Both the position numbers and the translations under genes were made by a program. From Cellulomonas taurus (GTDB lineage: Bacteria; Actinomycetota; Actinomycetes; Actinomycetales; Cellulomonadaceae), in the NCBI RefSeq assembly GCF_012931845.1, contig NZ_CP051884.1, positions 1,860,001 through 1,924,000 on the forward strand: DNA of 64,000 bases. The letters run 5' to 3'. Under the pieces are notes generated by a model. It made no database searches, was not told the origin of the DNA, and saw nothing but the letters and a program-made list of their open reading frames with translations. Shown here in pieces: positions 4,501 to 9,306 of the stretch; the first letter of the stretch is position 1; every line of letters begins with the position of its first letter.

Positions 4501-5505
4501 TCAGCTGTCGACAGCTGCCCGTCGCTCGTCCCGCCGGGCGGCCGCCACGCTGGTCAGCGCGGTCACGCCGAGGATCAGCACGATCACGACCAGGGAGACC
4601 CAGGTCGGCGGCTCCGGTGCCCAGGAGACCTCCTGGCCCCCGTTGATGAACGGCAGCGTGTTCTCGGCCAGCGCCTGCAGCACCAGCTTCACGCCGATGA
4701 AGCCGAGCAGCACACCGAGGCCGATGTTCAGGTAGCGGAGTCGGGTCAGAAGTCCACCGAGCAGGAAGTACAGCTGGCGCAGCCCCATCAGCGCGAAGAC
4801 GTTCGCCATCAGGACCAGGTACGGCTCGCGGGTCACGCCGAAGACCGCGGGGATCGAGTCGAAGGCGAACAGCAGGTCGGTGGCGCCGATCGCGATCAGC
4901 ACCAGCAGCATCGGGGTGATCACCCGGCGACCGTTCTCCCGCGCGGTCAGGTGCACGCCCTCGAACCGGTCGCTGGTCGGCAGCACGCGCTGCACGATCC
5001 GGACCAGCGCGGGCGGCGTGTAGTCGTCGTCCTCCCCTGCCTCGTCGCCGACGCCCTCCCGGGCGACCTTGATCGCGGTCCAAACCAGGAACAGGCCGAA
5101 GAGGTAGAACACCCAGGAGAAGTGCGCGATCACCGTGGCACCGAGGGCGATGAAGATCCCCCGGAACACCAGCGCCAGGATGATCCCGACCAGGAGGGCG
5201 GTCTGCTGGTACTGCCGTGGCACGGCGAACCGGGTCATGATCAGCAGGAAGACGAACAGGTTGTCGACGCTCAGCGAGTACTCGGTCAGCCAGCCCGCGA
5301 CGAACTCGCCCGCCGGTGCCGTCCCCCAGGTCAGGGCGACGACACCGGCGAAGACCAACGCCAATCCGATGTAGACCCCCAGGTACCGCAGGCACTCGGC
5401 GGTGCTCGGGACGTGCGGTCGTCGGCCGACCACCGCCACGTCCACGACCAGGATCGCCAGTGCTGCGCCGATCGAGACGAGCCAGACCAGGGGGGAGACA
5501 TCCAT
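4501..5505 (-). CDS. TerC family integral membrane protein (distal)
   Basis: A 334-residue TerC/Alx family protein with about nine hydrophobic helices. The family hallmarks EYSLSVDNLFVFLLIM and FAFDSIPAVFGVT contain the acidic residues thought to bind metal. Characterised relatives export Mn2+ or supply metal to exported enzymes. A charged loop (EAGEDDDY) separates the two halves. It starts 9 bp after the stop of the upstream TerC paralogue and so is almost certainly cotranscribed and under the same manganese riboswitch. A second, non-identical TerC copy may allow a hetero-oligomer or different metal affinity; this is inference. Confidence 0.88.
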   Translation of the reverse strand: MDVSPLVWLVSIGAALAILVVDVAVVGRRPHVPSTAECLRYLGVYIGLALVFAGVVALTWGTAPAGEFVAGWLTEYSLSVDNLFVFLLIMTRFAVPRQYQQTALLVGIILALVFRGIFIALGATVIAHFSWVFYLFGLFLVWTAIKVAREGVGDEAGEDDDYTPPALVRIVQRVLPTSDRFEGVHLTARENGRRVITPMLLVLIAIGATDLLFAFDSIPAVFGVTREPYLVLMANVFALMGLRQLYFLLGGLLTRLRYLNIGLGVLLGFIGVKLVLQALAENTLPFINGGQEVSWAPEPPTWVSLVVIVLILGVTALTSVAAARRDERRAAVDS

Positions 5506-5514
5506 GCGGGTGGG

Positions 5515-6558
5515 TCAGCTCTCCTTGGCGACGGGGGTGGTGTCCTCGGACACGGTAGCGACCTCGGCGTCCCGGCCGTCGCGACGGGTCTTGATCAGCG
5601 AGGCGATGGTGGCGACGGTCAAGGTGCCGAGGATCACCAGCAGCGAGACCACCGTGGGGATCTCCGGCGCCCACTCGAAGTGCTCGCCGCCGTTGATGAA
5701 GCTCAGCTCGTTGGTGTGCATGGCGTGCAGCACCAGCTTCACGCCGATGAAGCCGAGGATGAACGCCAGCCCCTGGGACAGGTAGACCAGACGCTCCAGC
5801 AGACCACCGAGCAGGAAGTACAGCTGGCGCAGGCCCAGCAGGGCGAAGGCGTTCGCGGTGAAGACGATGTACGGCTCCTGGGTGATGCCGTAGATCGCCG
5901 GGATCGAGTCCAGCGCGAAGATCACGTCGGTGGAGCCGATGGCCGCCATCACCAGCAGCATCGGGGTGATGAACCGCTTGCCGTCGATCCGGGTGGTGAG
6001 CCGGTCGCCGTGGTACTCGTCGACGGTGGGCAGCACGCGCTTGAGCAGCCGGACCGTCAGGCCGTCCTTGCGTTCGCTCGCATGATCGACCTCACCGGGC
6101 TCGTGCTTCTCCCGGGCCAGGTTGATGCCGGTGTACACCAGGTACGCGCCGAAGATGTAGAACACCCAGGACCACTGCTCGATGGCGGCGGCACCGACCA
6201 GGATGAACACGGTGCGCAGGACCAGCGCGATCGCCACGCCGACCAGCAGCACCTTCTGCTGGTACTCCCGGGGCACCGCGAACTTGGTCATGATGATCAG
6301 GAAGATGAACAGGTTGTCCACCGAGAGCGCCTTCTCCGTGACGTACCCGGTGAAGTACTCGGTGCCGTGTCCCCAGCCCCACACCGCGCCCAGGCCGACG
6401 CCGAAGACCACGGCGAGGCCGATGTAGACCGCCGACCAGATCGCCGATTCCTTGAAGGTCGGTGCGTGCGGGGTCCGCACATGCGCGTAGAAGTCGAAGA
6501 TGACGAGGCCGAGCACAGCGGCGCCCGTGACCAGCCAGACCCACAGGTCAACTGACAT
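5515..6558 (-). CDS. TerC family integral membrane protein (riboswitch-proximal)
   Basis: A 347-residue TerC/Alx homologue, first gene of the pair. It has the same two signature motifs (EKALSVDNLFIFLIIM and FALDSIPAIYGIT) and several membrane helices; the C-terminus is a soluble tail. Expected role is manganese efflux or loading, by analogy with Alx and MntP-regulated systems. The ATG at 6558 is preceded by GGAGG at 6567-6571 (minus strand), which forms part of a 10-bp hairpin of the yybP-ykoY leader. Translation is therefore probably switched on by Mn2+. Confidence 0.9.
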   Translation of the reverse strand: MSVDLWVWLVTGAAVLGLVIFDFYAHVRTPHAPTFKESAIWSAVYIGLAVVFGVGLGAVWGWGHGTEYFTGYVTEKALSVDNLFIFLIIMTKFAVPREYQQKVLLVGVAIALVLRTVFILVGAAAIEQWSWVFYIFGAYLVYTGINLAREKHEPGEVDHASERKDGLTVRLLKRVLPTVDEYHGDRLTTRIDGKRFITPMLLVMAAIGSTDVIFALDSIPAIYGITQEPYIVFTANAFALLGLRQLYFLLGGLLERLVYLSQGLAFILGFIGVKLVLHAMHTNELSFINGGEHFEWAPEIPTVVSLLVILGTLTVATIASLIKTRRDGRDAEVATVSEDTTPVAKES

Positions 6559-6566
6559 GGATGTTT

Positions 6567-6690
6567 CCTCCGGTACAGGGGTTGACGAAGTACCGGAGGT
6601 CTCTCCCTACCCTGACGGGCCGGTGACCCCGGGCCGACGACGCAGTCGACCGTGATGACGGGGGCACCGTGACGGGATACTCCCCTCCAC
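6567..6690 (-). promoter_or_regulatory. yybP-ykoY manganese riboswitch controlling the TerC pair
   Basis: The minus-strand leader contains the two conserved pieces of the yybP-ykoY class: GGGGAGTAT at 6685-6677 and CAGGGTAGGGAGAGACCT around 6615-6598. A 5' GGAGG (6688-6684) can pair with CCTCC (6599-6595) to form the closing helix. The same CCTCC belongs to a perfect 10-bp stem 6590-6599 with 6567-6576, which buries the GGAGG ribosome binding site 8 nt before the TerC start. The two helices exclude each other, so ligand binding would free the ribosome binding site. Recognition is by eye; no covariance search was run. Confidence 0.85.
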
Positions 6691-6743
6691 AGCGCGCTCA
6701 GCCTAGGCCATCAGTCCTAGAACGACGAGCTGACCTGCGCGTG

Positions 6744-7187
6744 TCATGTGACACAGAATTCGTTGCCCTCGGGATCGGCGAGCACCACCCAGGCGCCCTC
6801 CCGCTCGTCGTCCACCTCGGTCAGCACGGTGGCGCCGGCCTCGACCAGGGTGGCCGCGTGCTCGCGGGCGGCGGCGAGCTTGGCGGCCCGGTCGCTCGGT
6901 GCGATGCCGCGCTCGGCGGAGAACCGCACGTCCAGGTGCAGCCGGTTCTTGACCGTCTTGGCCTCGGGCACCTTCTGGAAGAAGATCCGCGGCCCGCGAC
7001 CGGCGGGGTCGACGATCGCGTAGGCGGGGTCACGGTCGCCGTCCGGGCCGATCCCCCAGGCGTCCATCGCCTCGTCCCAGGAGCCGAAGGGCGGTCGCGG
7101 CGGTTCCTCCACGTAGCCGAGGGCGGTGATCCAGAACGCGCCGAGCGCGCGCGGGCCGTGGCAGTCGATCACGATCTGGACGTCCAT
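6744..7187 (-). CDS. VOC (glyoxalase-like) family protein
   Basis: About 147 residues with the two-fold beta-alpha-beta-beta-beta arrangement of the vicinal oxygen chelate superfamily: CHGPRALGAFWITALGY in the first half, RLHLDVRF in the middle and VLADPEGNEFCV at the C-terminus, typical of Glyoxalase_6-like proteins. The His of RLHLD and the Glu of GNEFC are candidate metal ligands. GTG (7190) and ATG (7187) are adjacent; GAGGGAG at 7193-7199 gives proper spacing only to the ATG, so 7187 is chosen. It lies 16 bp downstream of uvrB and may be read through from it. No substrate assigned. Confidence 0.78.
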   Translation of the reverse strand: MDVQIVIDCHGPRALGAFWITALGYVEEPPRPPFGSWDEAMDAWGIGPDGDRDPAYAIVDPAGRGPRIFFQKVPEAKTVKNRLHLDVRFSAERGIAPSDRAAKLAAAREHAATLVEAGATVLTEVDDEREGAWVVLADPEGNEFCVT

Positions 7188-7203
7188 CACGCGCTCCCTC
7201 GAG

Positions 7204-9306
7204 TCAGGCGGTCGCCGCCGTCATCTGTCGCAGTTCCTTCTTCAGGCCGGAGATCTCGTCCCGGAGCCGGGCGGCCAGCTCGAACTGCAGCTCCGCGGCG
7301 GCCGCGTGCATCTGGTCCGAGAGCTCCTGGATCAGATCGCCCAGCTCACCGGCGGCGGCACCGGCGAGCTTGGCCCGCTCGGTGGTCGGCGCCTTGGAGC
7401 CGAGGCCCGGGACCGGTGCCTTGCCCCGCGACGACTGCCGCCCGGCGCCACCGAGCAGCTCGGCGGTGTCGGCGTCCTCCCGGGCCAGCAGGTCGGTGAT
7501 GTCGCCGATCCGCTTGCGCAGCGGCTGCGGGTCGATGCCGTGCTCGGTGTTGTAGGCGATCTGGATCTCGCGGCGGCGGTTGGTCTCCTCGATGGCCTTG
7601 GCCATTCCGGCGGTGACCTTGTCCGCGTACATGTGCACCTGGCCGGAGACGTTACGGGCGGCACGGCCGATGGTCTGGATCAGCGAGGTGTCCGAACGCA
7701 GGAAGCCCTCCTTGTCGGCGTCCAGGATCGCGACCAGGGACACCTCCGGCAGGTCGAGGCCCTCGCGCAGCAGGTTGATGCCGACCAGGACGTCGTACTC
7801 GCCCATCCGCAGTTCCCGCAGCAGTTCGACCCGGCGCAGGGTGTCCACCTCGGAGTGCAGGTAGCGGACCCGGACACCCTTCTCCAGGAAGTAGTCGGTG
7901 AGGTCCTCCGCCATCTTCTTGGTCAGGGTGGTGACCAGCACGCGCTCGTCCTTCTCCACCCGGGTGCGGATCTCCTCCAGCAGGTCGTCGATCTGGCCCT
8001 GGGTGGGCTTGACCACCACCTCCGGGTCGATCAGGCCGGTGGGTCGGATGATCTGCTGCACCACACCGTCGGACTGGGACAGCTCGTAGTTGCCCGGCGT
8101 GGCCGACAGGTACACGGTCTGGCCGATCCGGTCGACGAACTCCTCCCAGCGCAGCGGCCGGTTGTCGGTGGCGGAGGGCAGGCGGAAGCCGTAGTCGACC
8201 AGGTTCCGCTTGCGGGACATGTCGCCCTCGTACATCGCACCGATCTGCGGCACGGTCACGTGCGACTCGTCGATCACCAGGAGGAAGTCCTCCGGGAAGT
8301 AGTCCAGCAGCGTGTTGGGCGCGGTGCCCGCCGCGCGGCCGTCGATGTGCCGGGAGTAGTTCTCGATCCCGGAGCAGCTGCCGATCTGGCGCATCATCTC
8401 GATGTCGTAGGTGGTGCGCATGCGCAGCCGCTGGGCCTCCAGCAGCTTGTTCTGCCGCTCCAGCTCGGCCAGGCGCTCCTCCAGCTCCAGCTCGATCCCG
8501 GCGATGGCGCGCTCCATCCGCTCCGGGCCGGCGACGTAGTGCGTGGCCGGGAAGACGTGCACCTGGGTCTCGTTGCGGACCACGTCACCGGTCAGCGGGT
8601 GCAGGGTCTGGATCGCCTCGATCTCGTCCCCGAAGAACTCGATCCGGATCGCCAGCTCCTCGTACACCGGGATGATCTCGACCGTGTCGCCCCGCACCCG
8701 GAAGGTGCCGCGGGTGAAGGCCATGTCGTTCCGGCTGTACTGCTGGGTCACGAAGTCGCGGAGCAGCTGGTCGCGGTCGATCACGTCGCCGACGCTCAGC
8801 GTGATCATCCGGTCGACGTACTCCTGCGGGGTGCCCAGACCGTAGATGCAGGACACTGACGCCACTACGACCACGTCGCGCCGGGTCAGCAGCGAGGAGG
8901 TGGCCGAGTGCCGGAGCCGCTCGACCTCGTCGTTGATCGACGAGTCCTTCTCGATGTAGGTGTCCGTCTGCGCGATGTACGCCTCGGGCTGGTAGTAGTC
9001 GTAGTACGAGACGAAGTACTCGACGGCGTTGTTGGGCAGCAGCTCGCGGAACTCGTTCGCCAACTGCGCGGCCAGGGTCTTGTTCGGCGCCATCACCAGG
9101 GTGGGGCGCTGCAGCTTCTCGATCAGCCAGGCCGTGGTGGCCGACTTACCGGTTCCGGTGGCGCCCAGCAGGACGACGTCCTTCTCCCCCGCGGTGATCC
9201 GCTCGGCCAGCTCCGCGATCGCGGTCGGCTGGTCACCGGAGGGGGTGTACTCGGACACCACCTCGAACGGGGCGACGGTGCGCTGGAGATCGGTGACGGG
9301 ACGCAT
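7204..9306 (-). CDS. uvrB: Excinuclease ABC subunit B
   Basis: UvrB, the damage-verifying helicase-like subunit of nucleotide excision repair, 700 residues and full length. Walker A GATGTGKS is at residues 48-55, the beta-hairpin region [11 protein letters not shown] follows, then VIDESH (Walker B/DEAD-type) and the helicase motifs [12 protein letters not shown] and QTIGRAARN. The C-terminal UVR domain (about residues 660-695, [14 protein letters not shown]) that contacts UvrA and UvrC is intact. TAGGGT lies 6 nt before the ATG, so the mRNA is probably leaderless. No LexA-type palindrome was recognised upstream. Confidence 0.97.

Follow-up and report, generated by a model that had tools for sequence, protein, structure and literature searches.

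Organization of the terC1-terC2 locus

Within the window (the whole 64,000-nt stretch of the Cellulomonas taurus contig NZ_CP051884.1 that was analysed), two TerC genes lie behind a structured leader on the minus strand, terC1 at 6558–5515 and terC2 at 5505–4501; the original prediction had named a tandem of TerC genes here. Upstream on the same strand are a glyoxalase-like gene (6744–7190) and uvrB (7204–9306), and about 50 nt separate the end of the glyoxalase-like gene from the start of the riboswitch. The coordinates predicted for the three short strands of the switch proved correct (minus strand: GGAGG 6688–6684, CCUCC 6599–6595, and GGAGG 6571–6567 as the Shine-Dalgarno sequence, SD). 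The CCUCC strand does have two possible partners, namely the first GGAGG, in the closing helix of the aptamer, or the SD of TerC1. The start codon of TerC1 is the ATG at 6558–6556 (minus strand), with a spacing of 8 nt from the SD. The features of the locus are as follows.

6700–6705, minus strand: putative -10 element TAGGCT, directly upstream of the aptamer; conserved by eye in Cellulomonas leaders
6684–6688, minus strand: 5' strand GGAGG of the switch helix P1.1; helix paired in 99.2% of cells in 24 sequences, one pair changed on both sides
6678–6683, minus strand: 5' part of loop L1, GGAGUA (inside GGGGAGUA); invariant in the 24-row alignment
6674–6677, minus strand: 5' strand UCCC of P1.2, partner GGGA at 6607–6604; changes on both sides in 4 of 4 pairs
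6665–6669, minus strand: 5' strand CGGUG of P3.1, partner CACCG at 6625–6621; changes on both sides in 5 of 5 pairs
6651–6660, minus strand: loop L3, CGUCAUCACG; all 24 rows, E. coli alx among them, have CGUCA and ACG unchanged
6629–6632, minus strand: CCGG facing L3; second C invariant, other positions at least 90%
6609–6620, minus strand: P4 hairpin GCCC-GUCA-GGGU; present in constrained and free folds, length differing among relatives
6600–6603, minus strand: 3' part of loop L1, GAGA (of GAGACC); invariant
6595–6599, minus strand: 3' strand CCUCC of P1.1; common to the aptamer and the expression platform
6590–6599, minus strand: 5' arm of the SD-masking stem, CCUCCGGUAC; from folding and comparison of leaders
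6567–6576, minus strand: 3' arm of the SD-masking stem, GUACCGGAGG, with the SD GGAGG; from folding and comparison of leaders
5515–6558, minus strand: TerC1, 347-aa membrane protein of the TerC/Alx family; PF03741 6e-53, TIGR03718 380.4 bits
5521–5526, minus strand: AAGGAG, probable SD of TerC2 within the end of TerC1; kept in 11 of 15 junctions (window and L002–L011)
4501–5505, minus strand: TerC2, TerC/Alx family protein, 334 aa; PF03741 6e-50, TIGR03718 348.9 bits

No promoter emerged before the leader from a scan with the sigma-70 consensus; the putative -10 element is the TAGGCT listed above, which reads TATGCT in several relatives.

Structure and conservation of the aptamer

Covariation was computed on gap-free anchored columns of a set of 24 rows (A1), which included E. 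coli alx and was hand-picked for spread among the rows carrying the core. Across P1.1, P1.2 and P3.1 (14 pairs in 24 sequences, which are related and hence not independent), 97.0% of the cells were paired and 10 of the 14 pairs had changed on both sides. None of 500 shuffles matched the observed covariation on any of five measures, and sliding the partner strand lowered the pairing in the same sequences to 42–65%. The L1 core GGGGAGUA and the GAGAC on its 3' side were invariant in all 24 rows, including alx, as was the L3 sequence CGUCA-NN-ACG in the aligned rows. P1.1 and P1.2 flank L1, as expected of the yybP-ykoY family, and the helices covary. The metal-contacting adenosine is expected in L3, CGUCAUCACG (6651–6660). 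An invariable adenosine and an L3 loop have been described for yybP-ykoY RNAs (PMC6754395).

The modelled helices are P1.2, P3 and P4 with no further hairpin, and by eye E. coli alx looks alike in this respect; the crystallised members of the family have a four-way junction. A leader with GGGGAGTA followed by GAGAC was present at 41 of the 44 TerC loci collected by protein similarity. A search of 297 genomes across the order with the pattern GGGGAGTA-N40-70-GAGACCTCC yielded matches in eight, six with the full core and two chance-like (L050 and L053); the window leader itself escapes this pattern, as its own gap is 74.

Assignment to the yybP-ykoY family

The lack of a match to the yybP-ykoY covariance model had been named beforehand as a refutation, and the Rfam 15 model RF00080 gave no match at the leader. 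This was so in the window at the gathering cut-off, in 451 nt around the leader at E values up to 10 and, at the leader position, in a whole-genome search; none of 19 related loci was matched either. The same model, however, gave no match to the E. coli alx leader at E up to 0.1, and scored the E. coli mntP leader at 41.6 bits, below its gathering score of 45, even though both leaders are counted as members of the family (PMC9603457). Because RF00080 also misses E. coli alx, its silence at the Cellulomonas leader says little.

We built a covariance model, R1, from 23 actinobacterial rows, with the window included and alx held out. R1 matched the held-out E. coli alx leader from end to end (40.6 bits, E 1.2e-7) and gave no match to the E. 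coli mntP leader. In its own genome it found one convincing place, at 100 bits with the window in the training set, and the next matches had E > 5. One locus, L150, was matched by both models (RF00080 49.1 bits at 1501–1683, exceeding the gathering cut-off; R1 38.1 bits at 1507–1607); the element precedes an ORF with an AELGDKTQL stretch, which we read as GDT1. The two places that bear on the relation between the models are L054 (3874–4000) and L150 (1501–1683); L150, matched by both, shows that they describe one family. Since R1 finds the held-out alx and L150 joins both models, the window element is an alx-type yybP-ykoY RNA.

Thus the original proposal of a manganese riboswitch was largely supported: it held for the yybP-ykoY identity, by homology, and for the anatomy of a translational ON switch, and the check with RF00080 came out negative. 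The leader is very probably an ordinary manganese-sensing riboswitch, keeping the first gene's start signal covered as long as manganese is scarce. Its kind is already known, and the standard detection model overlooks the alx-type branch. Among 296 sampled actinobacterial genomes, RF00080 exceeded its cut-off in one and reached E 0.001 in ten, while R1 had matches at E ≤ 0.001 in 69.

Expression platform

The predicted competing stem, formed by CCUCCGGUAC (6599–6590) and GUACCGGAGG (6576–6567), was borne out as 10 perfect Watson-Crick pairs closing a 13-nt loop, and it appears in both the minimum free energy and the centroid folds of the free leader. For comparison we assembled 84 distinct leaders, consisting of 60 survey matches, 25 chosen loci and the window, minus L136 and L142, in which the script did not find GGAGTA. 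In 34 of the 84, the seven leading nucleotides of the P1.1 3' strand find a perfect Watson-Crick partner further downstream; 300 dinucleotide shuffles gave 0.68 such leaders on average and at most 6. When leaders were swapped, a Watson-Crick partner was matched in 419 of 5526 cases; the same control with G-U pairs allowed gave 1653 matches in 4904 and was too lax to discriminate. The counts permitting G-U were replaced by the Watson-Crick-only criterion, which was chosen after the lax result had been seen.

The three strands vary in concert: the trio GGAGG/CCUCC/GGAGG was found in 28 leaders, GAAGG/CCUUC/GAAGG in five and GAAGG/CUUUC/GAAAG in three, and nine further leaders carry GAAGG/CCUUC/GGAGG with the SD pairing by G-U. 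The SD-masking partner tracks the switch strand beyond chance. In 56 of the 84 leaders a partner to all five nucleotides was followed by a start codon 3–15 nt on. Stem positions 8–10, which were not used in this selection, were paired in 43, 38 and 33 of the 56, against shuffled means of 25.7, 29.1 and 22.9; positions 6–7 showed little gain over column shuffles. The remaining 28 of the 84 had no SD partner under the criteria used, several Micrococcaceae among them (L033, L037 and L039); therefore the platform is not universal, and these three must use another.

Four leaders (L126 and the three Micrococcaceae just named) retain the aptamer core but show no evident partner through which the P1.1 3' strand could mask the SD, and so would have another expression platform; L095 does have such a partner.

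Ensemble energies with either helix forced were obtained for 54 of the 56 leaders that have both the five-nucleotide partner and the start codon. By these predicted energies, the window leader prefers the masked (OFF) state by 8.3 kcal/mol; 50 of the 54 leaders likewise prefer it, and the median is 9.65 kcal/mol. The predicted probability that the SD is unpaired is about 0 in the free leader, versus 0.22–0.76 with the aptamer held. A predicted OFF preference of about 8 kcal/mol is large for an equilibrium switch. As the default is OFF, ligand binding would therefore act while P1.1 exists without the SD arm, or else add great tertiary stability; we prefer the former, in which the metal is bound before the SD arm appears. 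An intrinsic terminator was sought in 6450–6800 and none was found, and control by such a terminator was rejected.

Distribution and gene context of R1 matches

Of the 88 R1 matches listed, 60 were inspected, and the rest comprised the match in the genome of the window, five that were skipped or lay at the end of a contig, and the 22 with the weakest scores. TerC genes were assigned with an in-house profile, and the rest with Pfam on ten representatives and BLAST of the others to these. The first gene within 200 nt behind the inspected matches encoded TerC in 35 cases, a P-type ATPase in ten, GDT1 in nine, a CaCA protein in two and an M50 protease in two; at one of the remaining two matches a P-type gene follows at a distance of 511 nt, and the other lacks such a gene. 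A gene for TerC, a P-type ATPase, GDT1 or CaCA thus stood within 200 nt at 56 of the 60.

The CaCA genes (Na/Ca exchanger type) lie directly behind the matches at L106 (279–1613) and L123 (271–1602) and are candidate manganese exporters. The M50 proteases are likewise directly behind their matches, at L122 (291–1490, with a CBS domain) and at L140, where a P-type ATPase follows the protease. At L104 a match of 65.1 bits is located ahead of a 288-aa ORF without a Pfam match, and a metal transporter sought in the 3.6 kb read was not found.

The two TerC proteins

TerC1 and TerC2 both score over the curated cut-off of TIGR03718 (TerC/Alx; 246.4 bits) and are the only PF03741 genes in the genome. 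They are 54% identical to each other and 37–38% identical to Alx, and TerC1 is 94% identical to TerC1 of Cellulomonas sp. RIT-PI-Y. A search of the genome at E 0.001 for other manganese exporters, covering GDT1 and MntP, found neither. The terC1-terC2 pair was present in 14 of 18 Cellulomonas-like loci (L002–L019); three others have one TerC (L016–L018), and in L019 the second copy is broken.

In the TerC tree, from which 15 near-copy loci were left out, the TerC2 rows come together in one clade (100/99); this clade joins TerC proteins of Nocardioides, mycobacteria and others (100/98) and stands apart from TerC1. The tree thereby assigns TerC1 and TerC2 to different old subfamilies. A recent tandem duplication of terC was rejected, given that the two proteins fall in different, well-supported clades. 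The riboswitch also precedes members of the wider group of TerC2, at L020, L021, L088, L090–L092 and L094. Another tandem of TerC genes from different clades lies behind a single R1 match at L101, in genome G001 from another family of the order; judging by the tree, in which L101_rs1 and L089_rs1 are long branches of unsure placement, this pair apparently arose separately from the one in Cellulomonas.

In other genomes this switch also precedes relatives of both TerC subfamilies, and this makes it likelier that both proteins export manganese or load it onto other proteins. In Bacillus subtilis, TerC proteins supply exported enzymes with manganese and also show manganese efflux activity (PMC10550928). 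The gap between terC1 and terC2 is 9 nt and the genome has no second switch; the expression of TerC2 would follow that of TerC1. The AAGGAG inside the end of TerC1, together with the short gap, fits translational coupling without showing it.

Proposed mechanism and alternative explanations

We consider it highly likely that the terC1-terC2 leader is an alx-type yybP-ykoY manganese riboswitch acting on translation. The basis for this reading comprises homology, the helices, the conservation of both competing stems, the gene context and the predicted stabilities. From these we infer the ligand Mn2+, the direction of the response, the co-transcriptional timing and the effect on TerC2. Without Mn2+, CCUCCGGUAC would pair with GUACCGGAGG and cover the SD of TerC1; this OFF fold is predicted to be the more stable of the two. 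Binding of Mn2+ between L1 and L3 would hold P1.1 (GGAGG/CCUCC) in place, so that the SD would be free and TerC1 would be translated. The capture of P1.1 would most likely take place as the RNA emerges, before the SD arm has been made, and TerC2 would probably follow through translational coupling or escape from Rho polarity. In other members of the family the switch helix is also P1.1, and its 3' strand is taken by a competing hairpin (PMC6754395, PMC11087558).

The same aptamer may instead act mainly on transcription, with an untranslated, GC-rich message being cut short by Rho in the OFF state and Mn2+ restoring the coupling of transcription and translation. As there is no intrinsic terminator at the leader, Rho would be the route of any transcriptional control; such a route has been shown for E. 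coli mntP (PMC11647493), and its effect would extend to TerC2. However, the SD itself lies within the masking stem, so translation would be affected first in any case, and we regard a mainly transcriptional switch as possible but on the doubtful side. It is distinctly unlikely that the aptamer senses alkaline pH along with manganese or in its place: the nearest tested relative that we found, E. coli alx, is reported to respond to alkali as well (PMC9603457), yet the same report treats pH as a modulator of manganese binding by mntP, and the genes behind the actinobacterial R1 matches are mostly those of metal transporters. A constitutive hairpin or a sensor of another metal, resembling yybP-ykoY by chance, would agree with the lack of an RF00080 match but hardly with the covariation, the match to the held-out alx, the bridging locus L150 and the gene context, and is very improbable.

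Beyond the translational manganese switch itself, we tentatively suggest a wider interpretation, which as a whole we hold to be rather unlikely: that one such switch governs the whole TerC set of the genome; that two ancient paralogues have been paired under it at least twice independently (in Cellulomonas and in G001), forming a two-part manganese unit and not spare copies; and that a broad alx-type regulon escapes the present Rfam model. The unit could, for example, combine a manganese exporter with a metal loader linked to Sec, and the CaCA exchangers and the M50-CBS proteases would be further members of the actinobacterial alx-type regulon.

Apart from this wider interpretation, the placing of two different TerC subfamilies under one manganese signal argues that both handle manganese. 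The design is an unusually plain actinobacterial translational one, in which one 5-nt strand has two partners and one of these is the SD. Annotation with RF00080 of Rfam 15 will miss most such switches in the phylum, as well as E. coli alx.

Comparison with known systems

The yybP-ykoY element has been reported as widely distributed (PMC3766115), and in one Vibrio the manganese-induced exporters mneA and terC lie at separate loci behind such switches (PMC13274385). Within the literature covered (titles and abstract openings, most subscription journals being outside the coverage), nothing was found on a Cellulomonas leader or on tandem TerC genes under one switch.

The Lactococcus lactis yoaB and Xanthomonas oryzae aptamers have P1.1 as the switch helix, docking of L1 with L3 and an ON response to Mn2+ (PMC6754395, PMC11087558), as proposed for the window leader. 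They are reported to be transcriptional, with an antiterminator competing with a terminator, and to have a four-way junction, whereas in the window three helices were modelled and there is no terminator. E. coli mntP belongs to this family too and switches translation on (PMC9603457, PMC11647493), as predicted for the window leader, but represents another sequence subtype (RF00080 41.6 bits; unmatched by R1). In Corynebacterium glutamicum, cg2157 (terC) also has an actinobacterial yybP-ykoY leader, reported with an Rfam RF00080 score of 49.13 bits and RNAseq support (PMC3890552); in contrast to the window, one terC is named there, and the likeness is by description only.

E. coli alx, the nearest tested relative that we found, shares with the window leader the core GGGGAGUA ... 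CGUCAUUACG ... CCGG ... GAGACC and the helices P1.1, P1.2 and P3.1, and its gene also belongs to the TerC/Alx family. The two differ in the expression platform: past GAGA, the alx strand is able to fold into a local GACCUUGCC/GGCGAGGUC hairpin located well before the SD, whereas in the window leader the SD of TerC1 is itself part of the stem.
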